A DNA stretch of 64,000 nucleotides, taken from the NCBI GenBank assembly GCA_017614155.1, contig JAGACK010000036.1:1-64000 (forward strand), given 5' to 3'. This stretch comes from Lachnospiraceae bacterium. Its GTDB lineage: Bacteria > Bacillota > Clostridia > Lachnospirales > Lachnospiraceae. The notes under the pieces were generated by a model. The model was not told where the DNA came from and made no database searches. It saw only the letters and a list, made by a program, of their open reading frames with translations. Both the position numbers and the translations under genes were made by a program. This document shows positions 14,362-44,810 of the stretch, piece by piece. Within the stretch, counting starts at the first letter, position 1. Every line of letters starts with the position of its first letter.

Positions 14362-15618
14362 ATGAGAGTACTGTTTCTGTTTCAGACATTTAGCTTTGAG
14401 AGATCGACGATATATCTGGACCTAATTGAAGAGATGAGGGATCGCGGACATGCCGTGACGGTTATTGCCGGAACGACAGACAGGGAGCTTCCGGACGGAC
14501 TTCACAAAGAGGACGGAGTGGATGTCGTATACCTGAAGCTTGCAGACCAGTTCGGGGCAGGGAAGATCAAAAAGGGCCTCATCCAGCTGTATATGGCTCC
14601 ATTAATGATCGCGCTGATCAGGAAGTATCTGTGGAAAAAGAAATTTGATGTGATCGCATACCCGACTCCGCCGGTGACGCTGGCTCCGGTGGTGAAAAAA
14701 TGCAGGGAGCATTTTAATTGCATCACCTATCTGATGCTGAAGGATATCTTTCCGCAGAATGCCGTGGACATAGGACTGATGTCAAAAGACGGGCTTGCAT
14801 ATAAATACTTCAAAAAGCTGGAGCGGGTGCTATATGAAAACTCAAAAAAGATAGGCTGCATGTCCGAAGGAAACATAGCCTATTTAAAAGAGCATGAGCC
14901 GTGGATACCGGACGGAGTCATAGAATATTTTCCGAATACCGTGAAAGTAAAGGAAGACAGAGGAGACAGGGGGACGGTCCTGTTGTCTCCTTCCGGCCAG
15001 AACAGATCCGATGTTTCCGATGATCAGAAGGAGACAAAAGGACCGTCCCCCTGTCTCCCCTGTCTCCGGTTCATGTTTGGCGGAAATATGGGAAAGCCCC
15101 AGGGTATCGGGTTTCTGCTTGAAGGAATAAAAAAAGCTGCCGATGTCCCTGAATTAAAGGATATATGCTTTGATTTCATAGGAGACGGAACCGAAAGCAG
15201 AAAGATAGAAGAATTCATCGAAAAGAACGGCCTGAAGAACCTGACATACAGACGCGGCGTGGACAGAGATACCTATGAGGAGATCCTGAAAGGATCCGAC
15301 ATCGGGATCATCTCCCTTTCAGAAGAATTCACGATACCGAACTACCCTTCAAGGATCCTCTCCTACATGCAGCTTGCAAAACCGGTTCTTGCCATCACAG
15401 ACAGAGTCACAGACATGAAGGACCTCATCCTTGAAAAAGCATCCTGCGGCTGGTGGACCCCATCCGGCGACGCAGAAAGCTTCATAGAAACACTTAAAGC
15501 AATATTAAACGAAAAGGCTTCTCTTCAACAGAAAGGCCTGAACGGCAGAAAATACCTTGAAGAAAACTTCAATGTAAAACTAAGCGCTAACATACTGGAA
15601 AAAAGTTATTGGGGATAG
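14362..15618 (+). CDS. GT4-family glycosyltransferase (WbuB-like) carrying a palindromic insert
   Basis: 418 residues. The N-terminal half has the GT-B opening MRVLFLFQTFSFE and DVIAYPTPPVTLAPVV. The C-terminal half has FMFGGNMGKPQG, DFIGDGTE and SDIGIISLSEEF...PSRILSYMQLAKPVLA. This resembles WbuB-type GT4 enzymes, and it sits directly before the UDP-FucNAc genes, so it may transfer FucNAc (inference). ATG 14362 follows a repeat element and has no visible Shine-Dalgarno; TTG 14356 is no better. Residues about 197-235 are encoded by an inverted-repeat element (14952-15067) that reads GDRGTVLLSP on its left arm and ETKGPSPCLP on its right. The insert lies in the linker between the two Rossmann domains, and both flanking domains look intact. 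The product may therefore still be active. Confidence 0.85.
   Translation: MRVLFLFQTFSFERSTIYLDLIEEMRDRGHAVTVIAGTTDRELPDGLHKEDGVDVVYLKLADQFGAGKIKKGLIQLYMAPLMIALIRKYLWKKKFDVIAYPTPPVTLAPVVKKCREHFNCITYLMLKDIFPQNAVDIGLMSKDGLAYKYFKKLERVLYENSKKIGCMSEGNIAYLKEHEPWIPDGVIEYFPNTVKVKEDRGDRGTVLLSPSGQNRSDVSDDQKETKGPSPCLPCLRFMFGGNMGKPQGIGFLLEGIKKAADVPELKDICFDFIGDGTESRKIEEFIEKNGLKNLTYRRGVDRDTYEEILKGSDIGIISLSEEFTIPNYPSRILSYMQLAKPVLAITDRVTDMKDLILEKASCGWWTPSGDAESFIETLKAILNEKASLQQKGLNGRKYLEENFNVKLSANILEKSYWG
14952..15067. repeat. Intragenic palindromic element, family 1 (in the WbuB-like gene)
   Basis: The left arm core is 14962-14990 and the right arm core is 15030-15058. They are 29 bp each and complementary except at one position, separated by 39 bases. 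A partial extra copy of the outer GGAGACAG-type sequence flanks each side. The reading frame runs through the whole element. The left arm is read in the phase giving GDRGTVLLSP, as in the other three intragenic copies. Confidence 0.9.
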
Positions 15619-15634
15619 CCCCCTGGAGGTTACT

Positions 15635-16672
15635 ATGAACGAACACATTTTTGACGGCAAAACACTGCTGATCACCGGCGGCACCGGATCTTTCGGAAAC
15701 GCCGTATTAAGGAGATTTCTGAAAACAGGGATCAAAGAGATCCGTATCTTTTCACGAGACGAAAAGAAACAGGACGACATGCGCCACTTCTATAACGATG
15801 ACAAGATCAAATACTACATCGGCGATGTCAGATCCTATCAGTCGATAGATGAGGCTCTCTACGGCGTTGATTACGTATTTGCTGCCGCAGCCTTAAAACA
15901 GGTTCCCAGCTGTGAATTCTTCCCGATGGAAGCAGTGAAGACAAATGTCATCGGAACCGATAATGTCCTGACAGCAGCGATCCATCAGGGAGTAAAAAAA
16001 GTCATCTGCCTTTCAACCGACAAAGCAGCTTATCCCATCAATGCCATGGGAACATCAAAGGCGATGATGGAAAAAGTATTTGTCGCAAAAAGCCGCACCA
16101 TAGACGAGGACAAAACTTTGATCTGCGGCACAAGGTACGGAAATGTCATGTGCTCGAGAGGATCGGTCATACCGCTGTTCATAGATCAGATCAGGGACAA
16201 AAAACCGATCACGGTGACGGAGCCGACCATGACCAGGTTCATCATGTCACTTGAAGAGGCAGTCGAGCTTGTATTATACGCCTTTGAAAATGCACACACA
16301 GGCGATATCTTCGTACAGAAAGCGCCGGCATGCACCATAGAGACTCTGGCTCAGGCGGTAAAAGAACTGTTCCACGCTGACAACGAGGTAAAGGTCATCG
16401 GAATCAGACACGGAGAGAAGATGGCAGAAACCCTTCTGACAAGCGAAGAGTGCGCAAGAGCCTATGATCTTGGTGACTTCTTCAGGGTGCCTGCCGACAA
16501 CAGGGATCTGAATTACGATTCATATTTTACAAAGGGCATGGAGAAAAGGGCAGATATAGAGACCTTCAATTCGGATAATACGACCATACTGAATGTGGAG
16601 CAGGTAAAGGAAAAACTGCTGAAGCTTGATTATATCCACGAAAGATTAAAAGAAATGGAGCTTGAAGCTTGA
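15635..16672 (+). CDS. capE: UDP-GlcNAc 4,6-dehydratase/5-epimerase (CapE/FnlA/WbjB)
   Basis: 345 residues, cytosolic, with no membrane domain. It has the NAD-binding TGGTGSFG near residue 14, AAALKQVPSCEFFP, STDKAAYPINAMGTSK (Met in place of the usual catalytic Tyr) and GTRYGNVMCSRGSVIPLF. These are features of the soluble inverting dehydratases that start UDP-N-acetyl-L-fucosamine synthesis. Length agrees with CapE. GGAGG (about 15625-15629) gives a good start at ATG 15635. It overlaps the next gene by TTGA. CapE, CapF and CapG follow each other without gaps, which makes the pathway call strong. Confidence 0.93.
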   Translation: MNEHIFDGKTLLITGGTGSFGNAVLRRFLKTGIKEIRIFSRDEKKQDDMRHFYNDDKIKYYIGDVRSYQSIDEALYGVDYVFAAAALKQVPSCEFFPMEAVKTNVIGTDNVLTAAIHQGVKKVICLSTDKAAYPINAMGTSKAMMEKVFVAKSRTIDEDKTLICGTRYGNVMCSRGSVIPLFIDQIRDKKPITVTEPTMTRFIMSLEEAVELVLYAFENAHTGDIFVQKAPACTIETLAQAVKELFHADNEVKVIGIRHGEKMAETLLTSEECARAYDLGDFFRVPADNRDLNYDSYFTKGMEKRADIETFNSDNTTILNVEQVKEKLLKLDYIHERLKEMELEA

Positions 16673-17799
16673 AGATACTCGTAACCGGAGCGCGCGGCTT
16701 CATGGGATCAAACCTGATAACGGCATTAAGATACAGGTCTGTGGCGGAAGTTCTGTCCTATACGCACGACCTTGATGATGATGCTCTGCTTTCGATGTGC
16801 AGACAGTGTGACGGAGTCGTGCACCTTGCGGGAGTGAACAGGCCGGAAAAGGAAGAAGACTTTGAAAAAGGAAATGCCGGACTGACCGAAAAACTCCTGA
16901 CTTTCCTTGAAAAAGCAGAGAACCCGGTCCCTGTTATCTGCAGTTCGTCAACGAGGGCAGCAGGAAACGATGCCTACGGGATATCAAAGAAAAAAGCGGA
17001 AGACCTGATAAACGCCTATGGCCGCAGAAACGATACAAGAGTGTTTGTATACCGTCTGCCGAATGTATTCGGCAAATGGAGCAGACCGGAGTACAATTCC
17101 GCCGTCGCTACCTTTTGCTATCATACTGCCAGGAAAGAGCCAATCCGCATAGACGACAGGTCACATGCGATGAAGCTTTTGTACATAGACGATATCGTAC
17201 AGGAATTCATAGAAGACATAGAAAGCTTTGAGACAGAAAAAACCTACAGGGAAAACGAAGGAGGCATTGAACCATTAAGGTGCGTTGTACATGAAACGAC
17301 CCTCGGGTTTGTGGCAGATACGATCCTTTCCTTCGGAAAAATGAGAGAAAGCCTGTCAGTGCCTGATCTGTCAGACCCGCTTACATCAAAGCTCTACAGC
17401 ACCTATCTGAGCTTCCTGCCTCCAAACGAACTGTCCTATGACCTGAAGATGAACTGTGATGAGAGAGGATCCTTCACGGAATTTTTGAGGACAAGGGGAG
17501 CAGGCCAGGTGTCGGTGAATATCAGCCGTCCCGGCATAGTCAAGGGACAGCACTGGCACGATTCAAAGAATGAGAAATTTCTTGTGGTAAAAGGAAAAGG
17601 GCTGATCCGCTTCAGGAAAGTGGGAGAAGAGGACATCTTTGATTATCATGTAACAGGAGAAAAACTTCAGGTAGTCGAGATTCCCACAGGCTACACTCAC
17701 TGCATCATAAATGAGGGCGCCGAAGACATGGTAACCGTGATGTGGGCCAACGAACCGTTCAACCCTGACTATCCCGATACATTTCACGAAGAGGTGTAA
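16669..17799 (+). CDS. capF: Bifunctional reductase/epimerase of UDP-FucNAc synthesis (CapF/FnlB/WbjC)
   Basis: 376 residues. The N-terminal SDR domain opens KILVTGARGFMGSNL and has the Tyr-x3-Lys in YGISKKKAE. The C-terminal third is a cupin domain with the metal-binding pattern GQHWHDSKNEKF and ending in MWANEPFNPDYPDT. This two-domain layout is specific to CapF, which epimerises at C3 and reduces C4 of the CapE product. The start is TTG 16669, with GGAG at 16657-16660 spaced 8 bases, overlapping the capE stop as TTGA. Key residues of both domains appear present. Confidence 0.93.
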   Translation: MKILVTGARGFMGSNLITALRYRSVAEVLSYTHDLDDDALLSMCRQCDGVVHLAGVNRPEKEEDFEKGNAGLTEKLLTFLEKAENPVPVICSSSTRAAGNDAYGISKKKAEDLINAYGRRNDTRVFVYRLPNVFGKWSRPEYNSAVATFCYHTARKEPIRIDDRSHAMKLLYIDDIVQEFIEDIESFETEKTYRENEGGIEPLRCVVHETTLGFVADTILSFGKMRESLSVPDLSDPLTSKLYSTYLSFLPPNELSYDLKMNCDERGSFTEFLRTRGAGQVSVNISRPGIVKGQHWHDSKNEKFLVVKGKGLIRFRKVGEEDIFDYHVTGEKLQVVEIPTGYTHCIINEGAEDMVTVMWANEPFNPDYPDTFHEEV

Positions 17800-17801
17800 A
17801 C

Positions 17802-18929
17802 ATGAACAAATTAAAACTGATGACGATTCTCGGCACACGCCCCGAGATCATCCGCCTCAGCGAGGTCATTAAATGCGCCGACAGATACTTTGATCACACG
17901 CTGGTACACACCGGACAGAACTATGACAGGACATTGAACCAGGTCTTCTTTGAAGATCTGAAGCTTCGAGAGCCCGACATGTACCTTGACTGCGTCGGAG
18001 AAAACCTCGGACAAACCATGGGCAATATCATAGCAAGATCCTACGAACTCCTTGCAAAAGAAAAACCCGACGCCCTTCTGATCCTGGGAGATACAAACTC
18101 GGCGCTCTGCGCCATATCCGCAAAAAGGCTCAAGATACCGATCTTTCATATGGAAGCAGGAAACAGATGCTGGGACTGGAATGTATCCGAGATGATAAAC
18201 AGAAAGATCGTCGATCATATCAGCGATATCAATCTCCCGTATACCGAGCATTCCAGGAGATACCTGCTTTCGGAAGGTATAGACGGCAAGACGATATTTG
18301 TGACCGGTTCGCCCATGAAGGAAGTGATAAAGAAACATATAGATGAGATAGAAGCCTCCGATGTCATGAAAAAACTCGGGCTGGAAAAGAACAGGTATAT
18401 CCTTGTTTCCGCACACAGGGAGGAAAACATCGATATCGAAGAGAACTTCATGGAACTGATGAATTCCATAAACGAGATGGCAAAAACCTATGATGTGCCT
18501 GTTATCTATTCGACTCATCCCAGGACAAAAAAATTCATCGAAAAAAGAAACTTTAAGTTTGATGACAGGGTGAAAAACCTCGAGCCCTTTGGATACTTTG
18601 ATTATAATAAACTCCAGAAGAACGCCTATGTTGTCCTCTCTGATTCGGGAACACTTTCGGAAGAGTCGGCCATGCTCGATTTTCCTGCAGTGCTGATAAG
18701 GACTTCAACCGAACGCCCTGAGGTTCTCGATAAGGGCACGGTAGTGATCGGAGGAATAAAAAGCGAAGATGTTCTCCGTGCGGCGGAGCTTTCAAGAGCC
18801 ATGTATGATAATAAAGAAAAGACGGTGGAAGCAGAAGATTATGCCGATGAAAATGTTTCAGTGAAAGTCGTCAAGCTCATCGAAAGCTATACAAAGATAG
18901 TAAACGAAACGGTGTGGTTAAAGCATTGA
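17802..18929 (+). CDS. capG: UDP-N-acetylglucosamine 2-epimerase family enzyme (CapG/FnlC/WbjD)
   Basis: 375 residues with the non-hydrolysing 2-epimerase signature: GTRPEIIRLSEVI at the N-terminus, HTGQNYD, LILGDTNSAL, HMEAGNRCWD and DSGTLSEESAMLDFPAVLIR. Directly after CapE and CapF it is expected to make UDP-N-acetyl-L-fucosamine from the talosamine-configured intermediate. GAGG at 17791-17794 precedes ATG 17802. The 2-base gap to capF and TTGA overlap with the next gene place it firmly in the operon. Confidence 0.93.
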   Translation: MNKLKLMTILGTRPEIIRLSEVIKCADRYFDHTLVHTGQNYDRTLNQVFFEDLKLREPDMYLDCVGENLGQTMGNIIARSYELLAKEKPDALLILGDTNSALCAISAKRLKIPIFHMEAGNRCWDWNVSEMINRKIVDHISDINLPYTEHSRRYLLSEGIDGKTIFVTGSPMKEVIKKHIDEIEASDVMKKLGLEKNRYILVSAHREENIDIEENFMELMNSINEMAKTYDVPVIYSTHPRTKKFIEKRNFKFDDRVKNLEPFGYFDYNKLQKNAYVVLSDSGTLSEESAMLDFPAVLIRTSTERPEVLDKGTVVIGGIKSEDVLRAAELSRAMYDNKEKTVEAEDYADENVSVKVVKLIESYTKIVNETVWLKH

Positions 18930-19948
18930 AGATAGCAGTCCTTGACATAGCAGCAAGCAAGACCGGCGCGCTGTCCATACTGCGGGATTTCTACGGATAT
19001 GTAAAGGATCACAAAAACCCGGAAAATGAGTGGGTGTTCATAACCGGAGTCAGAGATATCCTCGAAGCTGTTCCGGAAAAAAAGATCAGCGTGATCTGTC
19101 GCGAGGATGTAAAGGCATCATCAAAAAACAGGCTGATGTTTGATCTGTTTTCGGGAAAAAAATTCCTGGAAAGCCTTTCGCCGGATGTGGTCTTTTCATT
19201 GCAGAACACTCTTCCCAAAGGCATTGAATGCAGAAAAAAGATCCTTTATGTCCATCAGCCTCTGGGATATCAGACAGCAAAAAAATTCTCCTTCCTGAAA
19301 AAGGAGGAACGACATCTGGCCATGTATCAGTATATGTATGCGCCTTTGGTAAATGCTTCGGTGAAGGCGGCAGATGTCACGGTAGTCCAGACAGAATGGA
19401 TGAAGGATGCCGTAAGAAAAAAGACAGGCATAAGCAAAGAAAGGATACGGGAGATCGCGCCGGACATACCGGATATCTCAGAATATGCGAAGGATGCCTG
19501 CTTTGACAGAAAGAGTTTTTTTTACCCGGCAGGAGACATCCTGTACAAGAATCATTCCCTTATAAATGCGGCAGTCAGACAGTTAAAGGACGAAGGGATA
19601 GACGACCTGAAGATCACTTTTACAAAGGACAAGCCGCTTGGCCGCAGCGAGGTATGCAGGAAATATTTTGAGAGCACGCTGCTTTTTCCTTCTTATATAG
19701 AGACCTACGGACTTCCGCTTGCAGAAGGGATGCAGACGGGAAATCCCATACTGGCGGCGGACACTCCGTTTGCAAGACAGATCCTTGAAGGGTATGAGAA
19801 AGCATATTTTTATGATCCGTTTGATCCTGTCAGACTCAAAAGTCTGATGAAGGAAGTATATGAAGAAAAGATAACTCCCGGAAGCAGGAAAACAAAGAGC
19901 GGGAGTTCGAATTCATACGCAGAGATAGTAAAGCTCATAGAAGAATGA
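18926..19948 (+). CDS. GT4-family glycosyltransferase
   Basis: 340 residues from TTG 18926, which overlaps the capG stop as TTGA and gives MKIAVLDIAASKTGALSIL; a GTG at 18914 is an alternative. The C-terminal GT-B domain shows YPAGDILYKNHSLI and FPSYIETYGLPLAEGMQTGNPILAAD, where the Glu of the E-x7-E-type motif of retaining GT4 enzymes is visible. The N-terminal domain is more divergent. It is predicted to be a cytosolic or membrane-peripheral enzyme adding one sugar of the repeat unit. Donor and linkage are unknown. The ribosome site is weak, so translation probably depends on coupling to capG. Confidence 0.8.
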   Translation: MKIAVLDIAASKTGALSILRDFYGYVKDHKNPENEWVFITGVRDILEAVPEKKISVICREDVKASSKNRLMFDLFSGKKFLESLSPDVVFSLQNTLPKGIECRKKILYVHQPLGYQTAKKFSFLKKEERHLAMYQYMYAPLVNASVKAADVTVVQTEWMKDAVRKKTGISKERIREIAPDIPDISEYAKDACFDRKSFFYPAGDILYKNHSLINAAVRQLKDEGIDDLKITFTKDKPLGRSEVCRKYFESTLLFPSYIETYGLPLAEGMQTGNPILAADTPFARQILEGYEKAYFYDPFDPVRLKSLMKEVYEEKITPGSRKTKSGSSNSYAEIVKLIEE

Positions 19949-21030
19949 AACCGTTAGCATTGTATCTTCCCCAATTTCATAGATTCCCCGAAAATGATGA
20001 GTGGTGGGGAGAAGGCTATACCGAATGGACAGCCGTGAGGAGAGCAAAGCCGCTCATGAAAGGCCACATTCAGCCGCGCGTTCCGCTGGGTCTTGATTAT
20101 TATGATCTTTCGGATGAGGGAGCGACTGCCCTTAAAAGACAGGCAAAGCACGCAAAGGAATTCGGGATATACGGCTTCTGTTTTTATCATTATTATTTCA
20201 CGGGCACCATCCTGATGAAGCGACCGATGGAGATCTTTCTGCAGCATCCCGAGATAGATATGAAATATTGCATCTGCTGGGCAAACGAAAGCTGGACCAG
20301 GACCTGGTACGGGCTGGATGAGGAAGTGCTCATGCAGCAGCGGTACGGACATGACAGGGAGTGGAGCAGGCATTTCAATTATCTGCTGCATTTTTTCAAA
20401 GATGACAGATATATCAAGATAGATAATAAACCCGTCCTCAATATCTACAGGGCGCAGGACATCAAAAGACTTGCGGACATGCTTGAGCTTTTCAATAATA
20501 AAGCCAGAAAAGAGGGCTTTGACGGCATCTATACCATATGCGCAAAGACTGCCGCAGGCATGGAAGACAGGGGAGATATCATAAACGGTCATTATTATTT
20601 TGAACCCGGTTATACTTTGAAACAGGATATGGGCTTTATCAATTCGACTCTGTACAAAGCGGGGACCGGCATGAGATATCTTGCAAACAGGACATTCAAA
20701 AAAAAGATCCTTGAAAGACGGATACCCATAGAGCTTATCTATGACAGGATAGCAAAGAGGGAATATGCCGAAAACGAATATCCGGGTATCTTTGCCAGAT
20801 GGGACAATACTCCGAGACGGGATTACAAAGGCCTGGTATATACCGGCGCAACGCCCGGATCCTTTGAGGAGATACTTGGAGTGCTGAACGAAAAACTGCA
20901 GGGCAGGGAAAATGATTTCGTCTATATCAACTCCTGGAATGAATGGGGAGAAGGCGCGATGCTCGAGCCTGATGAGAAAGAAAAGTTTGAATATCTTGAG
21001 GCCGTAAAAAGGGTGGTAAAGAGTGAGTAA
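19945..21030 (+). CDS. WbsX-like protein (glycoside hydrolase family 99-like domain)
   Basis: 361 residues opening MKPLALYLPQFHRFPENDEWWGEGYTEW and containing FGIYGFCFYHYYF, CICWANESWTRTW and the C-terminal FVYINSWNEWGEGAMLEPD (quoted in parts; the last two are signature motifs). These identify the WbsX family, which carries a GH99-like TIM-barrel and is found almost only in polysaccharide clusters. The carboxylates in WGEG and NEWGEG are the conserved candidates for catalysis. No signal peptide is seen, so it acts in the cytoplasm, which is odd for a hydrolase; transfer or editing on lipid-linked sugar is possible. It overlaps the previous gene by ATGA. Confidence 0.85.
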   Translation: MKPLALYLPQFHRFPENDEWWGEGYTEWTAVRRAKPLMKGHIQPRVPLGLDYYDLSDEGATALKRQAKHAKEFGIYGFCFYHYYFTGTILMKRPMEIFLQHPEIDMKYCICWANESWTRTWYGLDEEVLMQQRYGHDREWSRHFNYLLHFFKDDRYIKIDNKPVLNIYRAQDIKRLADMLELFNNKARKEGFDGIYTICAKTAAGMEDRGDIINGHYYFEPGYTLKQDMGFINSTLYKAGTGMRYLANRTFKKKILERRIPIELIYDRIAKREYAENEYPGIFARWDNTPRRDYKGLVYTGATPGSFEEILGVLNEKLQGRENDFVYINSWNEWGEGAMLEPDEKEKFEYLEAVKRVVKSE

Positions 21031-22039
21031 AGGAAAGATCAGCATCATATCCATAATCTACCGCGTTGAGGATTTCCTTCCTCAGGCGATAGAGAGCATG
21101 CTGCGTCAGACCTACAGTGATCTGGAGATCATCCTCTGTGTCGGAGTCGGAGGGGATGAGGATGCAAGCCTTTCGATCTGCGAGGATTTTGCGGCAAGGG
21201 ACAGCAGGATAAAGATCATCAAAAGAGATGCTGACAAAGGTCAGGGCTATGCGAGAAATCTGGGGCTTGAAGCAGCCACAGGCAGGTACATAGGCTTCGT
21301 GGACGGGGACGATTTCATCGAAGAGGACATGTATGAAAGACTCCTGGATAACCTGATAAAATACGACGCGGACATATCGGTCTGCGGAAAATACAGCGAC
21401 TATGAGGACGCAAGCATTCCTGACAGACAGGCGCCGGTCCGGGTCATGACAAACAGGGATTCCTATGAGATGCTTCTTCGGGGCAATGGTTTTTTCTTTC
21501 ACTGCTGGGACAAGCTGTATAAAAAGGAGATATTTGACGGTCTCACCTTTCCCGGAGGATATCTTGAAGACAGGTATGTCATAGGCACAGCTCTATACCG
21601 TTCAAAGAGGACAGTTTATGATACGACGCCGCTCTATCACTATCGGATCAGAAGCGACAGCGGATCAAGGATAATAAAGATGTCCGAATACAATACCGAT
21701 GCGAACACTGTTTTCTGTGCGCAGGCAAAGGAGCAGTTTCCCGAGCTTTCCGAACTGGCTGATGCCACGCTGCTGTATGACCATATCACGAACATCCAGA
21801 ATTATCTCATCTACTTCAAAGGAACGGATGAAGATAATGATGAGATGAGGGAAAGGTACAGATCGCATCTTCAGTATGTGCGGGATAATAAAAACAAAAA
21901 GAATCCCGAGGTCTCAAAAAAGCTGAAGCTGAAGGTATTCATGACACTGTATATGAAGCCTCTTTTGAGACTGGTAACAAAGAAAAGAGTGGAGAAGCAG
22001 AAAAGCAGAAATGAAGTATTCAAAAGAAAGATATCCTGA
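21023..22039 (+). CDS. GT2-family glycosyltransferase
   Basis: 338 residues. A GT-A fold opens ISIISIIYRVEDFLPQAIES, with GYARNLGLEAATGRYIGFVDGDDF, where the DGDD is the metal-binding DxD. The acceptor-side stretch CWDKLYKKEIFDGL follows. The start is GTG 21023, overlapping the WbsX gene by 8 bases, with only a weak purine-rich site upstream. The C-terminus is basic and amphipathic, suggesting peripheral membrane binding. Donor and acceptor are not recognisable from sequence. Confidence 0.85.
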   Translation: MSKGKISIISIIYRVEDFLPQAIESMLRQTYSDLEIILCVGVGGDEDASLSICEDFAARDSRIKIIKRDADKGQGYARNLGLEAATGRYIGFVDGDDFIEEDMYERLLDNLIKYDADISVCGKYSDYEDASIPDRQAPVRVMTNRDSYEMLLRGNGFFFHCWDKLYKKEIFDGLTFPGGYLEDRYVIGTALYRSKRTVYDTTPLYHYRIRSDSGSRIIKMSEYNTDANTVFCAQAKEQFPELSELADATLLYDHITNIQNYLIYFKGTDEDNDEMRERYRSHLQYVRDNKNKKNPEVSKKLKLKVFMTLYMKPLLRLVTKKRVEKQKSRNEVFKRKIS

Positions 22040-33499: not shown

Positions 33500-34808
33500 C
33501 GGACTGAAGGAGAAAAAAGAAAAACTGGCGCTTGTGGGGCTGGGCTATGTCGGAATGCCCATAGCGGTTGCTTTTGCAAGGCATTTTAATGTGATAGGCT
33601 TTGACCTGAGCAGTGAGAAGATAGCAAAATACAGATCCGGGATAGACCCTACCGAGGAGGTGGGAGATGAAGAGATAAAAAAGACAACGGTTGATTTCAC
33701 GGATGATGAAAAACGTCTTTCGGAAGCGGGCTTTATCATAGTTGCCGTGCCCACTCCGGTCAATCAGGACAAGACACCGGACCTGAAGCCCGTTGAGGGT
33801 GCAAGCCATACCGTCGGCAGAAATCTCAAAAAGGGATCGATCGTGGTCTATGAATCGACTGTATATCCCGGCGTAACGGAGGATGTCTGTATTCCGATAC
33901 TTGAAGCAGAATCCGGACTGAAATGCGGGACCGATTTCAAAGTGGGTTATTCTCCGGAGCGCATCAATCCCGGTGACAAGGTCCATCGTCTTGAGAATAT
34001 CAAAAAGATCGTATCCGGCATGGATGAAGAATCTCTTGAGATAATCGCAGCCGTTTATGAGACGGTAATAAAGGCAGGCGTTCACAGGGCTGGTTCCATC
34101 AAGGTCGCAGAGGCTGCAAAGGTTGTCGAGAATTCCCAGAGGGATATCAATATCGCATTCATAAATGAGCTTGCCATGGCCTTTGACAGGATGGGGATAG
34201 ATACGACCGAGGTCATAGATGCCATGAACACAAAATGGAATGCCCTCGGGTTCAGACCGGGTCTTGTCGGGGGACACTGTATAGGCGTCGATCCGTATTA
34301 TTTTGTTTATGAAGCTGAAAAGCTTGGTTATCATTCACAGATAATCTCTTCGGGCAGGAGGATCAATGATGATATGCCCTCCTTCATTGCCGAAAAGATC
34401 ATCAAACAGCTTGTAGTTTCCGGAAAGAGAGTGAGGACATCCAGGGTGGTATTCCTTGGAGCCACCTTTAAAGAGAACTGTCCTGATGTCAGGAATTCCA
34501 AGATAATGGAAGTTGTCGATGCTCTTTCAGAATACGGGATACGCCCCAGGATCACGGATCCCATGGCTGATTCAGAGGATGTAAAGAGAAGCTACGGATA
34601 TGACCTGACGGATATAAAGGACATAAATGATGCAGACTGCCTGATACTTGGGGTTTCCCATGATGCATATAAACAGATGGGACTGTCCGGAATGGATGCC
34701 CTGTTTGACAGTAAACTGAAAAATGAAGAGAAGGTCATCATAGATATAAAGAGCATCCTTGATAAAAAAGAGGTTGAAAAGAATGGCTACTTCTACTGGA
34801 GGCTCTGA
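33486..34808 (+). CDS. tviB: UDP-N-acetylhexosamine 6-dehydrogenase (TviB/WbpO-like)
   Basis: 440 residues from ATG 33486, which has ideal 7-base spacing from AGGAGG (33473-33478); ATG 33483 is one codon earlier. It has the NAD-binding ALVGLGYVGMPIA, VPTPVNQDKTPDL, YESTVYPGVTED, ENSQRDINIAFINELA and the catalytic Cys in GGHCIGVDPYY. The CIGVDPYY form separates the UDP-HexNAc dehydrogenase (TviB/WbpO/Cap5O) group from UDP-glucose dehydrogenases, so the product is probably UDP-GalNAcA or UDP-GlcNAcA. A separate Ugd occurs at 40723. Confidence 0.88.
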   Translation: MRLYDGLKEKKEKLALVGLGYVGMPIAVAFARHFNVIGFDLSSEKIAKYRSGIDPTEEVGDEEIKKTTVDFTDDEKRLSEAGFIIVAVPTPVNQDKTPDLKPVEGASHTVGRNLKKGSIVVYESTVYPGVTEDVCIPILEAESGLKCGTDFKVGYSPERINPGDKVHRLENIKKIVSGMDEESLEIIAAVYETVIKAGVHRAGSIKVAEAAKVVENSQRDINIAFINELAMAFDRMGIDTTEVIDAMNTKWNALGFRPGLVGGHCIGVDPYYFVYEAEKLGYHSQIISSGRRINDDMPSFIAEKIIKQLVVSGKRVRTSRVVFLGATFKENCPDVRNSKIMEVVDALSEYGIRPRITDPMADSEDVKRSYGYDLTDIKDINDADCLILGVSHDAYKQMGLSGMDALFDSKLKNEEKVIIDIKSILDKKEVEKNGYFYWRL

Positions 34809-36321
34809 TAATAAAAAAGAAGGCAGCCCGTTTTCGGGCTTTCTGACATATTTTTACGGCAATTTCGTAGTCCTCCTCCTTGGATTTGTCCAGACACCCA
34901 TAGTCACGCGGCTCATGTCTACCGATGAGTACGGAAGGACAGGGATGTACGAGACGGCCGTGATGATAATCTATATCTTTGCCGTCATGGGCCTTGATCA
35001 GGCTTATATCAGGTATTATTATGCGGAGGGCGTAGACAGGAAACAGCTCCTTTTCAGATGTCTGATGCCGTCTGTTCTGATAGTATCGGTCATCTCACTG
35101 ATCTATTGTTTCAATGCGGATATCGCAAATGAGTTTCTTTTTGGAAAAAGCGGAAAAGACATAACCGCCCTTGTGGTGGTCTATGCTCTCATTTCGGTCT
35201 TTGAACGATTCTTCTTTCTCGATATCAGGATGCAGCAGAACGGAAAGCTGTATTCGAATATCAATATCGCGCAGAAGGTTCTGGCGCTTCTGACCATCGT
35301 TGTCGCATGGTATTTTCTCGGAAATGATTTCAGGGTGGCGCTCTATGCGCTCGCGGTGCCGTGGGGCATCACGACAGCGTTCATCATGATCAGATACTAT
35401 GTATTAGGCAAGGGAGACAGGGGAGACAGGGGTACGGTCCTTTTGTCTCCTTCAGAATTATCGAAAACAGCCGATAAATCTGACCGGAAGGAGACAAAAG
35501 GACCGTACCCCTGTCTCCCTTATAAGGAGCTCCTCCGCTACGGTGTTCCGTTTATCATGGTGCTGCTCATGGAGTGGCTCCTGTCATCCTGCGACAGACT
35601 GGCGCTCCGCACCTTTTCCGATTTTGACGAACTGGGTATATATACCAGCGCCATGAAGATAATCGTGCTGCTGCTCACCTTCAAGAATACCTTCATAGCA
35701 TACTGGTCTCCCGTTGCGATGCAGCGTTTTGAAAAATACGATATGGAGGACAACAGGGGATTTTTCAGATCGGCGTATGATCTGACTCAGTTTCTGTGCG
35801 TGATCGCTGCAACGGGTCTGATACTTTTCAGGCGGGTTATAGTCCTGCTTCTGGGTCCTGACTACAGGGGAGCGGAGAGGATGATACCCTTCCTTACTCT
35901 CATGCCTGTCTTTGCTATGCTTTTTGAGATCAGGGTGCAGAGCATCAAGTATTCCAAAAAAAATCTGTATCTTAATATCGCATCACTTCTTGCTATCATT
36001 ATCAATATCGCAGGCAATACGATCCTGGTCCCATTATGGGGAGGCGTGGGCGCCTCGGTAACTACGGGTATATCATACCTTGTTTATTTTGCGGGCGGGT
36101 CGTTTTTGGGTGAAAGATGTATTAAAATAGGTTATGGCATAAAAAAGACGGCAGTCTATACGATAATGCTTTTATTATACTGTACCGTCACAACAATGGA
36201 TGTGAGCATATGGGGTGAAGCGGCAGCGGGATTACTGATACTCGGAGCGGCTGCTTTTATCGACAGAAAGGAGCTGGGAGTCTGCATAGGATATGTCAAA
36301 GGTTTCTTCAAACATAAATAA
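34783..36321 (+). CDS. Wzx-type flippase 2, carrying a palindromic insert
   Basis: 512 residues from ATG 34783 (GAGG at 34770-34773, 9-base spacing), overlapping the dehydrogenase gene by 26 bases. It is an MVF/MATE-fold flippase of 12-14 helices beginning FLTYFYGNFVVLLLGF with RLMSTDEYG. Between the two six-helix halves, about residues 210-247, the frame runs through an inverted-repeat element (35410-35521), giving GDRGTVLLSP on the left arm and ETKGPYPCLP on the right. The insertion is in the central cytoplasmic loop, where length variation is best tolerated, and the helices on both sides look complete. I infer it remains functional. Confidence 0.87.
   Translation: MATSTGGSDNKKEGSPFSGFLTYFYGNFVVLLLGFVQTPIVTRLMSTDEYGRTGMYETAVMIIYIFAVMGLDQAYIRYYYAEGVDRKQLLFRCLMPSVLIVSVISLIYCFNADIANEFLFGKSGKDITALVVVYALISVFERFFFLDIRMQQNGKLYSNINIAQKVLALLTIVVAWYFLGNDFRVALYALAVPWGITTAFIMIRYYVLGKGDRGDRGTVLLSPSELSKTADKSDRKETKGPYPCLPYKELLRYGVPFIMVLLMEWLLSSCDRLALRTFSDFDELGIYTSAMKIIVLLLTFKNTFIAYWSPVAMQRFEKYDMEDNRGFFRSAYDLTQFLCVIAATGLILFRRVIVLLLGPDYRGAERMIPFLTLMPVFAMLFEIRVQSIKYSKKNLYLNIASLLAIIINIAGNTILVPLWGGVGASVTTGISYLVYFAGGSFLGERCIKIGYGIKKTAVYTIMLLLYCTVTTMDVSIWGEAAAGLLILGAAAFIDRKELGVCIGYVKGFFKHK
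35410..35521. repeat. Intragenic palindromic element, family 1 (in flippase 2)
   Basis: Arm cores 35422-35450 and 35490-35518, separated by 39 bases, with a tandem extra GGAGACAG on the left. At the position where other copies have GGGGACGG, this copy has GGGTACGG in the left arm and the matching CCGTACC in the right, so pairing is kept by a double change. The 39-base centre resembles the centre of the copy at 14952-15067 when one is inverted. Confidence 0.9.
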
Positions 36322-37000: not shown

Positions 37001-37018
37001 GATGTCTGAAGGCGAGAC

Positions 37019-38533: not shown

Positions 38534-40175
38534 TGCAGCTGTCACTTTCGATCATCTCATAGGATCCGTTATCGAGCATTTCGGCGACGGGGCCTTCAAA
38601 CTCATTTTCATTTGGTGACGGATCGGCTTCGATGTCACCGCAGGAATCATAGGAACCGACATAGGTGTTCAGAACAAAGACGAGATCGGGTGTTTTTTCC
38701 GGATACAATCCATAGTACTCTGCAAGTCTTTCGCTGCTTATCATATTTCTCCAGGTAGAGGGGGCGGCAGCCTTTGCGTCACAGGCCAGATATCCCCAGG
38801 GCAGGAGCTTTGAAAAGAGCACATAGCTGCTCTTATTTTTGTATCTGTTTATGTCTGAAAGGACGGACATGTAGGTGTCATGGTGTTCCTTTGTAGTCAT
38901 GAGTCCAGCTGCAGGTCCCGCCGAGATCTTCGTATCCAGCCTGTTTAAGGGAGCATCCCTGTACACATTTATGAACCTGAGGACGGATGTCTGAAGCAGG
39001 AATAAACAGAGTACGGCAATGACGGTGTACTGAAGGATCTTATTATGCTCCTTCATAAATCCGAAGATGAAGAGGATGCCCGCCACGCAGGCTATGCCGT
39101 GACCGATCGACAGTACATACAGTTCTCCGTTTGAAGAATAGCTGTAAGTCATTGATACTATAAGACCTCCGAGGAAAAGCGTAACAAAAACACGGATATC
39201 TTTTTTTTCGCACATGAAAAAGAGCGGCGCGGCAAAGAGAGCCAGAGCCGTATTCATATAGCCTGTATGCCCGAGGGAAAGTACTGCATAATAAATGAAG
39301 AACATGCAGTCCGCAGCGAATATAAACGGTATGAGGTTTTTGAATCTGTTTGCTGCAAGCCCAAGAGCTGCCAGTGCAAAGGAAGCGTACCAGAACCTGC
39401 CGTATACATCGGTTATCGAGGTGAAGAATTTTTTGAAAGGCGCAACAACGCTTGTCTGATGTTCGTCATCTGAGAGGACATAGGGAAGATATTTTATGAG
39501 ATTTCCGATACTGTTTCCCGTTGCATAGATGTAGATCACAAATAATAAAAGCGCGGCAGCCATCCCGACAGCTGAAAAGAAAACGACAGACCGCAGTTCT
39601 TTGTATCTGATCGAAAAAGCAAGACCTGTAAGCCACAAAAGGATGACACCGATCACGAGTGAAGGAAGCGCCAATACTGACAGCGCCAGCATAAAGCCTC
39701 CGGTGATCAGAGAGCCTTTATTATTTACAGTTAAAAGCAGCATCGCAAAGACAAAGAATTCAAATGACATCGTGTAATATGAAAGAGCCGCTATGTTCAG
39801 GTGAGCATAAAAAAGCATGAAGAGCGCAATGCAAAAGGCAGCAGCCGTACCCGTGCGGGTTTTTATTATGCGGAATGAAATGATGGAAATGATCAGCGTG
39901 ACGAATATGTACAGGATCCTGAAAAAGAGAATGATGCCGGTTGTCCCTCCCGTTATCGTCACAAAGAGTGCATAGAATGGGAGCAGGATGATGGAGGACA
40001 GCTGGGTCGGGAACCATTCGTGGACAAAGATCAGATCGCCTTCAAACAGTCTTTTTGTGGTCGAAAGATAAAAGGGTTCGTCTGAGGAGCAGAACCCGAA
40101 AAAAGCCCTTATCACAAGGGCTGCTGCGCACAGAACGAGTATGATCATTGGTATGCTTTTCCGCAGTTTTTCCAT
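38514..40175 (-). CDS. GT-C-like membrane glycosyltransferase on the opposite strand
   Basis: 553 residues with about 11 helices and a hydrophilic C-terminal domain (about 420-553). The first external loop has FGFCSSDEPFYLSTTKRLFEGD followed by EWFPTQLSSI (given in part); the Asp-Glu pair there matches ArnT/PMT-type GT-C enzymes. These use polyprenyl-linked sugars on the outer face. It is the only minus-strand gene between 1 and 57920 and converges on the previous gene with a 20-base overlap. ATG 40175 has no Shine-Dalgarno. A GATAAT (complement at 40184-40189) lies only 8 bases before the ATG, which would allow a nearly leaderless transcript, but the -35 spacing is poor. Confidence 0.7.
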   Translation of the reverse strand: MEKLRKSIPMIILVLCAAALVIRAFFGFCSSDEPFYLSTTKRLFEGDLIFVHEWFPTQLSSIILLPFYALFVTITGGTTGIILFFRILYIFVTLIISIISFRIIKTRTGTAAAFCIALFMLFYAHLNIAALSYYTMSFEFFVFAMLLLTVNNKGSLITGGFMLALSVLALPSLVIGVILLWLTGLAFSIRYKELRSVVFFSAVGMAAALLLFVIYIYATGNSIGNLIKYLPYVLSDDEHQTSVVAPFKKFFTSITDVYGRFWYASFALAALGLAANRFKNLIPFIFAADCMFFIYYAVLSLGHTGYMNTALALFAAPLFFMCEKKDIRVFVTLFLGGLIVSMTYSYSSNGELYVLSIGHGIACVAGILFIFGFMKEHNKILQYTVIAVLCLFLLQTSVLRFINVYRDAPLNRLDTKISAGPAAGLMTTKEHHDTYMSVLSDINRYKNKSSYVLFSKLLPWGYLACDAKAAAPSTWRNMISSERLAEYYGLYPEKTPDLVFVLNTYVGSYDSCGDIEADPSPNENEFEGPVAEMLDNGSYEMIESDSCTIYVQR

Positions 40176-40251
40176 AGATACAGATTATCAAATGAAATGT
40201 GGCAAAGCAACGGGGGATTTTGTTTTTCGATGGGATTTGTTCTCATTTTTA

Positions 40252-40260
40252 TGATATAAT
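40252..40260 (+). promoter_or_regulatory. Extended -10 promoter before the hicA remnant, hicB and ugd
   Basis: TGATATAAT (40252-40260) is a full extended -10 element (TGn plus TATAAT). No good -35 is seen, which extended -10 promoters tolerate. It would start transcription near 40267 and restart the plus-strand operon after the inverted gene. Confidence 0.5.
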
Positions 40261-40310
40261 GATCTTGAAATAAACATAGAGTAGAATGGAAGAGTTACAG
40301 GATCAGTTCT

Positions 40311-40472
40311 ATGGGAAAGTATAATAGAATCCTGATCGAAGTACTATCCGGTCAGAAAGACAATAATATAAATATCCAGCCGAAAGGAAGTAAGGCGAAG
40401 GCATATCAGGTTAAGCAGATAAGACAGTTTTTGACATACAATAAGATAGGATTGGGGGATGAAGATGTATAA
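40311..40472 (+). pseudogene. hicA: HicA toxin remnant lacking its catalytic core
   Basis: A 53-codon frame starting at ATG 40311, 8 bases after AGGA (40299-40302). The first ~20 residues (MGKYNRILIEVLSGQKDNNI) match the N-terminal helix of the HicA variants common in Clostridia and cyanobacteria. The last ~33 (NIQPKGSKAKAYQVKQIRQ and onward) match their C-terminal part. The middle of about 30 residues, including the conserved GSHH catalytic histidine segment, is absent, and the two ends are joined in frame. The frame overlaps hicB, the usual toxin-antitoxin arrangement. The comparison is from memory of the family. The product should be inactive as an mRNA interferase. Confidence 0.65.
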
Positions 40473-40674
40473 ATATGAGAGAATAGTATATTGGTCAAAA
40501 GATGATGAGGCGTATATAGTTGAGGTTCCGGAGCTGCCCGGCTGTATGGCGGACGGTGAAACGATAGATGAAGCCATGAAGAATACAGATGTGATCATTT
40601 CTGAATGGATAGAGGTTGCGCGTGAAAGGGGACAGGTTATCCCTGAACCCAAGGGCCGGTTGTTATATGCATGA
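40459..40674 (+). CDS. hicB: HicB-family antitoxin
   Basis: 71 residues (69 if ATG 40465 is used). IVYWSKDDEAYIVEVPELPGCMADGET is the HicB partial RNase H-like fold signature (given in part), ending GQVIPEPKGRLLYA as in short HicB proteins that lack a separate DNA-binding domain. The MK start at 40459 aligns with family N-termini; GGGGG just upstream would serve ATG 40465 better. It overlaps the damaged hicA. With the toxin's catalytic region gone it may be a relic or a protector against related toxins elsewhere in the genome (inference). Confidence 0.85.
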   Translation: MKMYKYERIVYWSKDDEAYIVEVPELPGCMADGETIDEAMKNTDVIISEWIEVARERGQVIPEPKGRLLYA

Positions 40675-40722
40675 TTTTCTGAAGAGGGATAAAAAGAAAT
40701 AATAAGAGAGGATCATCAGGTT

Positions 40723-42033
40723 ATGAAGGTTGCGGTAGCGGGAACCGGATATGTCGGATTGGTAACGGGAGTCTGTCTTGCTGAGAACGGACATGAGGTT
40801 ACCTGCGTTGATGTGGATGAAAACAAGATAAAGATGATGCAGGAAGGAAAGGCGCCGATCTATGAGCCCGGCCTGCAGGAGTTGATGACAAAGAACTCCG
40901 AAAGACTGAAGTTTACGACCGATCATGTATCGGCATACAGGGATGCCGAAGTCATATTCATAGGTGTCGGAACTCCTGAGAAAAAGGATGGTTCCGCAAA
41001 CTTAAGCTATGTTTTTGCAGTGGCTGACCAGATAGCTGACAGTGTTCAGAATGAATGCGTGGTCGTAGTGAAATCCACGGTTCCCATAGGGACAAATGAC
41101 AGGGTTGAGGCGGCTGTTAATGAAAGATGCGCGGGACGGGTAAAGATCCATGTGGCGTCAAATCCGGAGTTTCTGGCACAGGGAACGGCGGTCAGGGATA
41201 CTCTGCATTCTTCAAGGATAGTGATCGGGGTGGAAGATGATTTCGCAAAGGACAGGCTGCTGCAGCTGTACAGCTGGTCGGATGCTCCGATGGTTGTGAC
41301 GAACAGGCGCTCCGCAGAGATGATCAAATATGCCTCCAATGACTTTCTGGCGCTGAAGATTTCCTATATCAACGAGATAGCGAATCTGTGCGAGGCGATC
41401 GGGGCGGATATAAAGGATGTGGCAAAGGGGATGAGCTATGACAGCCGTATAGGCGATAAATTCCTCAATGCCGGCATAGGCTATGGCGGATCGTGTTTCC
41501 CGAAGGATACAAAGGCGCTCAGCTGGCTTGCGACCTTTAATGATCATGAGATCAAAACCGTCAAGGCGGCGATAGAAGTAAATGAGAATCAGAAGCTTCT
41601 TCCGATCAAGAAGGCAAGAAGATACTTTAACGATCTGAGAGGCATCAATGTTGCGGTGCTTGGTCTGACTTTCAAGCCGGGGACGGATGATCTGCGCGAA
41701 GCGCCCTCGCTTGTCACCGTGCCTGTGCTGATCGATGACGGCGCAAAGATAAGGGCATGGGATCCGGTGGGAGTATCAAATTTCAAAAAGCAGGTTCCGG
41801 AGGGAGTGACCTACTGTGACAGCATAGAGGAGACTCTCAAAGGCGCGGACATATGTTTCATTTTTACCGAATGGAAGGATGTTCTCGAGCTTGATCCGGG
41901 TATGTTTGTAAAGCTTATGAATAATCCCATCGTTGTCGATGGAAGGAACTGTTTTGATGTAGAGAAGATCGCTTCCGTGAAGGGCCTGGTTTATGACAGC
42001 ATCGGAAGAGCGGTCATTGATACGAGATCATGA
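40723..42033 (+). CDS. ugd: UDP-glucose 6-dehydrogenase
   Basis: 436 residues. KVAVAGTGYVGLVTGVCLAE binds NAD, VGTPEKKDGSANL and VVVVKSTVPIGTND follow, SNPEFLAQGTAVRD marks the substrate loop, and the catalytic Cys is in GYGGSCFPKDTKAL. GLTFKPGTDDLREAPS lies in the C-terminal domain. It oxidises UDP-glucose to UDP-glucuronate with two NAD. The length is normal. AGAGAGGA about 10 bases upstream supports ATG 40723. It overlaps the next gene by ATGA. The product may be incorporated directly or be a precursor of other acid sugars. Confidence 0.95.
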   Translation: MKVAVAGTGYVGLVTGVCLAENGHEVTCVDVDENKIKMMQEGKAPIYEPGLQELMTKNSERLKFTTDHVSAYRDAEVIFIGVGTPEKKDGSANLSYVFAVADQIADSVQNECVVVVKSTVPIGTNDRVEAAVNERCAGRVKIHVASNPEFLAQGTAVRDTLHSSRIVIGVEDDFAKDRLLQLYSWSDAPMVVTNRRSAEMIKYASNDFLALKISYINEIANLCEAIGADIKDVAKGMSYDSRIGDKFLNAGIGYGGSCFPKDTKALSWLATFNDHEIKTVKAAIEVNENQKLLPIKKARRYFNDLRGINVAVLGLTFKPGTDDLREAPSLVTVPVLIDDGAKIRAWDPVGVSNFKKQVPEGVTYCDSIEETLKGADICFIFTEWKDVLELDPGMFVKLMNNPIVVDGRNCFDVEKIASVKGLVYDSIGRAVIDTRS

Positions 42034-44810
42034 ATAATAAACGCCCGTCAGGAATCTCATGTTTCATCTCCGGTCTGATTGTGGCAGTGATATTTCTTGC
42101 TGTTCTTGCAGTCAAGGGGATATGGCCGTTCGGGGCAAATACCATAGATTATTATGACATGGGCCAGACCAATGCCCCTCTGTATTATCATATCTGGGAT
42201 TTCCTGCATGGCAGGGGATCGCTTTTTTATACCCCGTTTCTTGACGGAGGTCAGAATCTGTCGATGGCGGGAGCCATCCAGTGGAATATCTCGATCTTCA
42301 ACCTGTTCTATTACCTGATACCCAGGAGCCTGTGTTTCAAGTCTCTGTCCCTGTTTACTGGCCTGAGGCTTGTTTTTATGGCCGTGAATATGTGTATTTT
42401 TCTGGGAGACAGGGGGACGGTCCTTTTGTCTCCTTTTTCAGGGAGACAAAAGGACCGTCCCCCTGTCTCCTTCATAATAGCAATGAGTGTTGCCTACGGA
42501 CTTTGCGGTTATGTTCTGACTCACTATACCATCACGACATATCTGGATATGGCGGCACTGTTTCCTTTGCTGATGTTATCGCTTTTTGGCGTGCTTCAGA
42601 ACAGGGATGATATCTGCATAGGTAAAAGACCGGTCATCAAAAGGACAGCGATCTACGCGCTGTGTCTTGGTTATACAACGGCTCTCAGTTATTATCTGGG
42701 ATTTATGAACCTCATTTTCATACTGCTGGTCTCAGGGACATATATTTTTCTCATAGTTCCGAAAGAAGAAAGAAAAGCTGTATCTTCAAAGCTTGTCATA
42801 GGAACGGTGACAGGTCTGATGATCTCTGCGTTCATGCTTTTGCCAGCAGCACTTCAGATGACCACTTCGTCAAGGTTCAATTCAAACCTGCAGGGGTCTC
42901 CTCTCGGCACGATCAAAGATATCCTCTGGTCAATAGGCGCCGATATGTATTATATCAAGGGCTTTGCTGTTTTCGGATGTTTTCTGGCGATGGCATTCAT
43001 TATTACGGGACTTGTGAGATTCAGAAAGGAAAGAAGGATAAACCTGTTTCTTTGCCTTTTCTGTTTTTATCCGTGCGCGCTTATTATATTTGAATCCATC
43101 AATCTTTTGTGGCATATGGGTACTTATTATCACTATCCGATCAGATGCGGATATCTCATACCCTTTACGCTGCTGACTGCAGGAGCGTATTTTGCAGCAA
43201 GATATGAGGGAGACAAGGGAGACAGGGGGACGGTCCTTTTGTCTCCTGTTTCAACGAGCGAGCCGGGCGACATGGATGTAGCTATACCGACTGAAGCAGA
43301 GAAAAGGAGACAAAAGGACCGTCCCCCTGTCTCCCGTTCCCTGCTTCGTCTTATGACCGGATACATTATTTTCACGACACTGGCTGTGATCCTGGGTGTT
43401 GCGGTCCTTCGGATATATCTGGGACACGGAGTCTGGGAGATACATGATCTTTTCAGGGCTTATCTTGTTTTTGCTGCCGTAATGCTTCTCATATATCTTG
43501 CTTTTATTTTTTTCAAAAGACCGGATGGGGTGTTCATCTTTCTGGCTGTTGAGCTGTGTGTCGGAGCATATATCGGTTTTGGCATGCCGAACTTCACTGA
43601 TGTTTTTTCCTCCGATCCGGAGCAGTCGGGAGCATATGTGCAGACTTCATCTGCACTGCAGCAGGATATGAAGATCAGGGAAAGCGTGACGGACAGGATA
43701 AAAAATCCGGATACGATGCTGAATGCCAATTACGGGATGGTGATCAGGAGAGCTACTGTCGGAGGCTGGGCAAATACGGCAAGGAGGGATCAGCTTGAGG
43801 CGGCCATGGCCTTTGGCTACAACGCGCATTTCATGAGGATCCTGGACAGTGGCGGAACGCTCTTTTCGGATGCCCTGCTCCATGTGACACAGACGCTGAC
43901 CTGCAGGGATGACCTGTATACGGATGAGGCCTGGGAAAAAACGGCACAGGCTGACGGCTATACGCTTTTTGATAATAAATACATACTTCCGTTTATCATG
44001 CTCACGGATCCTTCCTTTAGCGGGGCATATGACGGTGATACGGATGCTCGGGAGATGACAGAAGAATACTACAGGGCTGTATATAAGGGCGCTGTGGGAA
44101 AAGAGGCCGGTTCTGATGAGTTTGCAGAGTGGCTCGATCTGAAAGACCTTCATATCGACGGGTCAAAGGCTTTATACCTTCATGGCGGAAAAGGCGAGGA
44201 GATAAAAGTCAACGGAAAGACCATACCGGTCCCCACCATAGGATATCCGGATAATAAGACATTTCCTGCAGGATTCAATTCAAACCTGCTGTATTTAGGG
44301 CTGTATGAAGATGAGGATGTAAAGATCGAAGGAATCAGCAAAGATGCAAAGGTGCTTTCGATCGATCTTAAGGCGCTCGAAGAATTATGTGCGCTTTGCA
44401 AAAAAGAGATACCGTCAGAGTATTCAGGATCGGCGTATAAGTTCACCTTCAGCGCAGACAGATCCGGACAGGCACTCATTCCCCTGACCTATGACAGAGG
44501 ATTCATGGCATATGTCAACGGAAGGAAAGTCCCGGTAAAGAACATAGACGATCTGTTTATGGGAATACCCGTTGAAAAGGGAGAAAACGCCATCCTGCTG
44601 CAGTTTGTTCCGAAAGGCTATAATATCGGCATCATCATCACCATCCTCGGTCTTATAGCTGCATTTATCGTTCTCCCGTTCTTTGATGAAAATCTCATCG
44701 GCACAGTCAGCAAATATCTGACTGCTGTCTGCTATGCACTTGCCCTGACGATCCTGTATATCATCCCCATCGCCGCCTTCGTCCTTCACCAGATCCTGAA
44801 ACGGATCTGA
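42030..44810 (+). CDS. YfhO-like large membrane protein with two palindromic inserts
   Basis: 926 residues, about 12 helices plus a large extracytoplasmic region (about 540-890) and a final pair of helices. It resembles the YfhO family: WPFGANTIDYYDMGQTNAPLYYH near the start and a C-terminal PLTYDRGFMAYVNGRKVPV segment (given in part), typical of YfhO's beta-rich domain. YfhO proteins are thought to be GT-C-type enzymes that glycosylate wall polymers or lipids. Two family-1 palindromes lie in inter-helix loops: residues 126-147 (exactly 22 codons, 42405-42470) and about 394-435 (43209-43334). The frame is unbroken through both. ATG 42030 overlaps the ugd stop. Confidence 0.82.
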   Translation: MNNKRPSGISCFISGLIVAVIFLAVLAVKGIWPFGANTIDYYDMGQTNAPLYYHIWDFLHGRGSLFYTPFLDGGQNLSMAGAIQWNISIFNLFYYLIPRSLCFKSLSLFTGLRLVFMAVNMCIFLGDRGTVLLSPFSGRQKDRPPVSFIIAMSVAYGLCGYVLTHYTITTYLDMAALFPLLMLSLFGVLQNRDDICIGKRPVIKRTAIYALCLGYTTALSYYLGFMNLIFILLVSGTYIFLIVPKEERKAVSSKLVIGTVTGLMISAFMLLPAALQMTTSSRFNSNLQGSPLGTIKDILWSIGADMYYIKGFAVFGCFLAMAFIITGLVRFRKERRINLFLCLFCFYPCALIIFESINLLWHMGTYYHYPIRCGYLIPFTLLTAGAYFAARYEGDKGDRGTVLLSPVSTSEPGDMDVAIPTEAEKRRQKDRPPVSRSLLRLMTGYIIFTTLAVILGVAVLRIYLGHGVWEIHDLFRAYLVFAAVMLLIYLAFIFFKRPDGVFIFLAVELCVGAYIGFGMPNFTDVFSSDPEQSGAYVQTSSALQQDMKIRESVTDRIKNPDTMLNANYGMVIRRATVGGWANTARRDQLEAAMAFGYNAHFMRILDSGGTLFSDALLHVTQTLTCRDDLYTDEAWEKTAQADGYTLFDNKYILPFIMLTDPSFSGAYDGDTDAREMTEEYYRAVYKGAVGKEAGSDEFAEWLDLKDLHIDGSKALYLHGGKGEEIKVNGKTIPVPTIGYPDNKTFPAGFNSNLLYLGLYEDEDVKIEGISKDAKVLSIDLKALEELCALCKKEIPSEYSGSAYKFTFSADRSGQALIPLTYDRGFMAYVNGRKVPVKNIDDLFMGIPVEKGENAILLQFVPKGYNIGIIITILGLIAAFIVLPFFDENLIGTVSKYLTAVCYALALTILYIIPIAAFVLHQILKRI
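42405..42470. repeat. Intragenic palindromic element, family 1 (minimal copy, 66 bp)
   Basis: A perfect 29-bp inverted repeat (42405-42433 and 42442-42470) around the 8-base centre TTTTTCAG. It is exactly 22 codons and begins on a codon boundary. It encodes GDRGTVLLSP on the left and RQKDRPPVS on the right. It lies between two predicted membrane helices of the YfhO-like protein. Confidence 0.95.
43209..43334. repeat. Intragenic palindromic element, family 1 (long-centre copy)
   Basis: Perfectly complementary 29-bp arms at 43218-43246 and 43306-43334 enclose 59 bases unrelated by eye to the other centres. A partial tandem arm (GGAGACAAG, 43209-43217) precedes the left arm. The codon phase of both arms is the same as in the copy at 42405-42470 of the same gene. 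Confidence 0.93.

Follow-up and report, generated by a model that had tools for sequence, protein, structure and literature searches.

Four REPINs, each formed of two inverted REP arms around a spacer, interrupt three polysaccharide genes in frame within the window, which is the whole 64-kb stretch of DNA that was analysed. They belong to a repeat family that lies mostly between genes. The reading we consider highly likely is that the family is moved by a RAYT transposase and that its intragenic copies are frame-keeping passengers in tolerant loops. As judged from sequence comparison, the inserts are mobile DNA and not ancestral protein, because the aligned congeners lack them, apart from one YfhO copy, and the copy in the flippase gene is nearly identical to an intergenic copy.

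Elements and host genes in the window

The first element (REPIN 1, 14963-15057) lies in the interdomain linker of a GT-B glycosyltransferase ORF (14356-15618; Pfam Glyco_transf_4 and Glyco_trans_1_4) and the second (REPIN 2, 35423-35517) in the central loop of a polysaccharide flippase ORF (34759-36321; Polysacc_synt). The other two share the gene of a YfhO-family membrane protein (42030-44810): REPIN 3 (42406-42469) has a spacer of only 8 bp and falls between predicted helices, and REPIN 4 (43219-43333) has a spacer of 59 bp. All four elements and all three genes are on the forward strand. These coordinates are arm-to-arm limits; the wider limits given in an earlier note for three of the four include short repeats of a terminal GAGACAGGG-like unit. 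Two single REP arms on the same strand, both intergenic (285-312 and 7904-7931), had been overlooked there. The note had described four inverted repeats, open and in frame, and the host ORFs (420, 520 and 926 aa for the glycosyltransferase, flippase and YfhO-like protein) confirm this, with no stop or frameshift in any element. The openness of the frames used is nevertheless a partly circular measure, because a broken gene would escape calling as one gene.

The left arm reads as GDRGTVLLSP in four of four elements, exactly as had been claimed. The right arm is read in two phases, giving ETKGPSPCLP or ETKGPYPCLP in the glycosyltransferase and the flippase and RQKDRPPVS in both YfhO copies. In the glycosyltransferase the insert covers residues 201-237, between Pfam domains at 20-197 and 239-385. 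In the flippase it covers residues 218-255 and follows the sixth helix predicted by simple hydropathy (193-211). By the same method the first YfhO insert (site 1, residues 125-148) falls between helices at 101-119 and 146-164, and the second (site 2, residues 394-435) between helices at 339-357 and 446-464. All four sites, moreover, vary in length among congeners. The proposed placement of the inserts in loops or linkers is supported by the Pfam limits, the predicted helices and this variation.

The four copies fold into predicted hairpins of -66.6 to -79.2 kcal/mol (z -9.7 to -12.3), and no Rfam family matched over its curated threshold in the 64-kb window. When the stretch of locus L014 was searched together with the window the sole Rfam match was a TwoAYGGAY RNA motif, located at a contig end (L014:3-164). 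The three host genes, compared with their congeners, show 0.07-0.21 nonsynonymous differences per site versus 0.57-0.76 synonymous ones, values which cover mostly the time before insertion, with synonymous sites near saturation and dS undefined in one of eight comparisons. By our own gene calls, only 1.7% of the stretch 11800-55800 is noncoding, versus 9.8% elsewhere. The REPINs of the window are all intragenic (4/4, versus 5/38 elsewhere; Fisher P 0.001, a post hoc test), which may be explained by the little noncoding DNA in this cluster.

The repeat family and its RAYT transposase

A scan of the 2.64-Mb draft genome, allowing at most three mismatches, gives 164 arm cores and none for the reversed pattern. 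The stretches used for the element census hold 161 of these arms. The arms, whose consensus is GGGGAGACAGGGGGACGGTCCTTTTGTCTCCTT, make up 119 elements, of which 42 are inverted pairs and 77 are arms without a partner. The spacers of the REPINs measure 8-101 bp, and 34-44 bp in 32 of the 42. Gene calls made with our own simple hexamer script instead of a standard gene finder place 102 of the 119 elements between genes, three at gene edges and 14 inside genes, versus about 108 expected inside at 90.6% coding. In an earlier set of 103 elements the intergenic copies were found near gene 3' ends, at 50 bp or less for 72 of the 92 facing 3' ends versus 21 of the 76 facing 5' ends. The exact core is present in eight of 291 genomes of the class, including this one, and the exact 29-base arm had no match in an assembled-contig collection from which the present genome may be absent. 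For contigs C4, C8, C28, C44 and C10 of the draft (G000), a REP arm lies no more than about 250 bases from a contig end, so that the assembly is probably broken by the repeat.

Other genes of this genome also contain the repeat. An in-frame REPIN (L014:1242-1312) lies in an EF-G-like gene that is related to tetracycline ribosomal protection proteins but scores far under the cut-off (357 versus 775). Another (L022:14815-14909) lies in the gene of a protein that combines a YidC-like part with a sulfatase-like one, the sulfatase-like match being under the cut-off, and comes directly after the YidC-like domain. In the gene of a 1917-aa RCC1-repeat/Big_2 protein, some of the C-terminal tail is encoded by two tandem REP arms (L205:5922-5986), which are read in the RQGDGPVVS phase.

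Comparison of copies gives the evidence for mobility. The flippase copy is identical to an intergenic copy (L016) at 101 of 106 bases, with one change matched in both arms; the glycosyltransferase copy agrees with another intergenic copy (L015) at 91 of 99, and the intragenic copy L020 with its intergenic match at 98 of 103. Six REPIN pairs from unrelated sites were compared, and in these the arms and spacer are alike and the similarity stops at or near the arm ends. Among 496 spacer pairs, 105 score above every shuffled pair. Arms are more alike within than between elements, and perfect arm pairs occur in 23 of the 42 REPINs, versus a mean of 9.9 and a maximum of 19 in 5000 shuffles. The idea that intergenic REPINs are hidden frame-breaking insertions was rejected, since in 10 of 10 same-strand flanking pairs tested the two neighbours are different genes by Pfam; these ten belong to a set of 26 in which both neighbours are on one strand and each is no more than 120 bp from the element, and one partner (DUF1574) was identified only below the cut-off.

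The genome, estimated to be 94.67% complete, contains a single match to Y1_Tnp, on a contig other than that of the window. The protein passes the NCBIfam REP_Tyr_transpos cut-off narrowly (80.4 versus 80), and its HxH and Tyr residues are conserved with its relatives. A REPIN lies 10 bp past the stop of its gene and a REP 35 bp past the opposite end of the ORF. The earlier note was right to compare the inserts with REP-type palindromes and to look to a RAYT. The sequence alone gave no PDB match; a profile of 11 named RAYT relatives gave only one, TnpArep 4er8 (E 4e-05). The nearest named relatives, at 48% identity, come from Lachnospiraceae genomes of the goat omasum, and others come from Clostridia and Bacilli. 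The family is very probably moved by this single RAYT-type Y1 (HUH) transposase.

The pairing of RAYT and repeat is patchy in other genomes. Four congener RAYT loci were examined: that of G022 (L142) is flanked at either end by REP cores, all within 80 bp, that of G024 has one core at a distance, and those of G026 and G019 have none. Among named RAYT loci the core was found in four of 13 (reversed control 0/13), and it lies beside or overlaps the gene only in L116 and L117. In the latter the RAYT ORF (L117:129-941) shares its 3' end with the core (900-916), which there encodes part of the C-terminal tail of the RAYT. Congener G012 has 17 arms, mostly of a variant ending GTCTGC, and despite these no Y1 transposase was found in it.

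Insertion, retention and alternative readings

The three host genes have matches in 39, 36 and 40 of 41 genomes, the present one counted, and each was aligned with its 14 best congener loci. At the glycosyltransferase and flippase sites the REPIN is absent from all aligned congener loci, and at YfhO site 1 from all 13 congeners that have sequence there, G026 showing no sequence at this site. A decayed REP at YfhO site 1 in G029 was considered and set aside, as the shared GGGACGGTTC is too weak for such a claim. The insertions proposed in the earlier note are therefore missing from nearly all aligned sequences, the exception being one congener at YfhO site 2. There a segment derived from a REPIN occupies the same loop in G026 and in no other aligned congener. 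It is read in the same two phases; its spacer is shorter, its arms carry matched variants of their own, and the gene is split over two contigs. To judge from these sequences, the segment may reflect shared ancestry or an independent insertion.

Intragenic copies of the core are few in the other genomes searched, each of them in part: one of 17 hits in G012, none of four in G029 and one of three in G026, the hit in G012 lying in what looks like a signal peptide and hence probably being no insert. In other loci four of 44 core hits are intragenic, and all four represent one REPIN of one gene in two overlapping loci. An in-frame REPIN read as GTVLLS lies in a tRNA pseudouridine synthase gene of G323, which belongs to another family. 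The glycosyltransferase orthologue of G064 carries a different, unrelated repeat in frame at its interdomain linker (L162:1655-1762), with 38 matches in G064, its own place counted, and none in G000, G026 or G029.

The reading that best joins these observations is that REPINs would be mobilised by the RAYT of the genome, which would act as the catalyst, and would settle mainly between genes, often shortly after gene 3' ends. A copy entering a gene would be kept only if it preserved the frame and fell in a loop or linker already variable in length, and the retained inserts would then be translated as passenger segments of about 21-42 residues that bring no benefit. It is scarcely credible that the inserts are instead ancestral protein segments. 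Open frames and the segment that G026 shares at YfhO site 2 are what such an origin would have in its favour, but the other aligned congeners lack the segments at all four sites, and the DNA belongs to a repeat spread through the genome, one intergenic copy of which is nearly identical. Ancestry is thereby refuted at three of the four sites, those in the glycosyltransferase and the flippase and the first in YfhO, and at YfhO site 2 only the age of the insert remains at issue.

The earlier note had gone further and suggested that the elements may be selfish DNA adapted to coding regions. In its full form this reading would have selection make them stop-free and favour one phase, with genes as a real niche. 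The arm is indeed free of stops in all six frames, so that read-through is governed mainly by insert length and spacer, and in 31 of the 32 intergenic REPINs one frame or more is open; over all 32, however, open frames number only 90 out of 192. Intact REPINs are more often intragenic than single arms (9/42 versus 5/77, Fisher P 0.033), but the large intergenic majority of the family leaves the suggestion unsupported. The best hint of something beyond survivorship is the phase bias of the left arm. GTVLLS is used in seven of the nine intragenic REPINs of this genome (P 0.025), and in nine of 11 with the G026 YfhO and G323 pseudouridine synthase copies (P ~0.004), both values with a threefold correction and from a count that leaves out intragenic single arms and the gene-edge REPIN L028, which has a stop in the frame of the gene. 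Against this, the test is post hoc and its copies are not all independent, since two lie in one gene and that of G026 may go back to the same insertion. The right arm has no clear phase preference (5, 4 and 2 of 11), and the tandem arms of L205 are in a different phase. Adaptation is accordingly very unlikely in our estimation, and the intragenic copies are best read as survivors.

An action at the level of mRNA, in which the hairpin serves as an RNase III target or ribosome brake and lowers expression of the host or downstream gene, is also unlikely. It would fit the very stable folds predicted for the window copies and the retained identity of the arms, including the matched change in the flippase copy; yet mobility of a hairpin predicts arm matching equally, and the intergenic members cluster near gene 3' ends as do REPs of other families (PMC3733652). 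An mRNA hairpin that is nearly perfect over about 30 bp or more could all the same impair expression, which would count against translation of the inserts. A bolder extension is that certain loops of envelope-polysaccharide proteins serve again and again for both landing and retention, with repeats that are unrelated between species becoming linkers there independently, and that the REP arms of this lineage are in addition selected for harmless translation, mainly in the GTVLLS phase; we regard it as speculative and improbable.

Taken as surviving passengers, these inserts are otherwise the by-product to be expected of a REPIN family in a gene-dense cluster. As a comparative example of how mobile DNA passes into protein sequence they are clear: one glycosyltransferase linker holds two unrelated repeats in two species, and two species also have the same YfhO loop filled. 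They further make it possible to test directly what translation of a REPIN costs.

Relation to known repeat systems

A literature search, with most subscription papers outside its scope, returned no account of REPINs in polysaccharide genes of this group and no description of such a family for the lineage. The claim that protein-embedded elements of this sort are undescribed is nevertheless tenable only for the present lineage and gene set, as in-frame REPs within genes, dimers included, are already known (PMC3733652). What is added is a RAYT-linked repeat family without a GTAG or CGTC tag.

The family belongs to the REPIN/RAYT kind. As described by Bertels and Rainey (2011; PMC3116915), in the part of their account drawn on here, REPINs consist of paired inverted REPs with a less conserved spacer and a predicted hairpin, REPs lie beside the RAYT gene, single arms are likely remnants and the bulk is extragenic. 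The present family likewise has inverted arms in one hairpin, a RAYT flanked by REPs and a mainly extragenic distribution. It differs in its host, which is not Pseudomonas as in the known system but, to judge from the named RAYT relatives, probably a member of the Clostridia, and in that nine of 42 REPINs are read through inside genes.

According to the portion of Di Nocera et al. (2013; PMC3733652) considered here, genes can contain in-frame REPs and REP dimers of the GTAG and CGTC superfamilies. The authors report that over half of these inserts are dimers or groups that code for 20-30 residues, suggest that the tolerant sites are flexible loops and linkers, and also describe two insertions in one ORF. 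In-frame dimers, loop sites and two insertions per ORF are all found again here. However, the terminal GTAG is absent, the present arm ending in GGGGAGACA and TGTCTCCTT, and so is the CGTC tag; the phyla given for these tags in the same portion exclude Firmicutes. The CGTC repeats, including RPE-4 and RPE-6, have no transposase gene association reported there, whereas here a RAYT adjoins the repeats. Many of the host genes described in that portion function in DNA synthesis or repair, and those found here are largely envelope and membrane genes.

The repeats of the TIRYT transposases, named TIR in the same source, may be near relatives. They lack GTAG, lie beside RAYT-like genes, are in some cases self-complementary and in dimers, and their motif GGGGWSAS fits the consensus outer end of the present arm, GGGGAGAC, exactly so in 64 of 161 arms. 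This nearness is judged by the published motif, and intragenic copies are not mentioned for them in the part of the account considered. The Rickettsia palindromic elements, to which the inserts had also been likened, are described in the parts of the two sources used (PMC2229807, PMC3733652) as in-frame palindromes in many genes, with one product, a guanylate kinase, translated and active. Their sequence differs from that of the present family, and both reside in frame inside genes.
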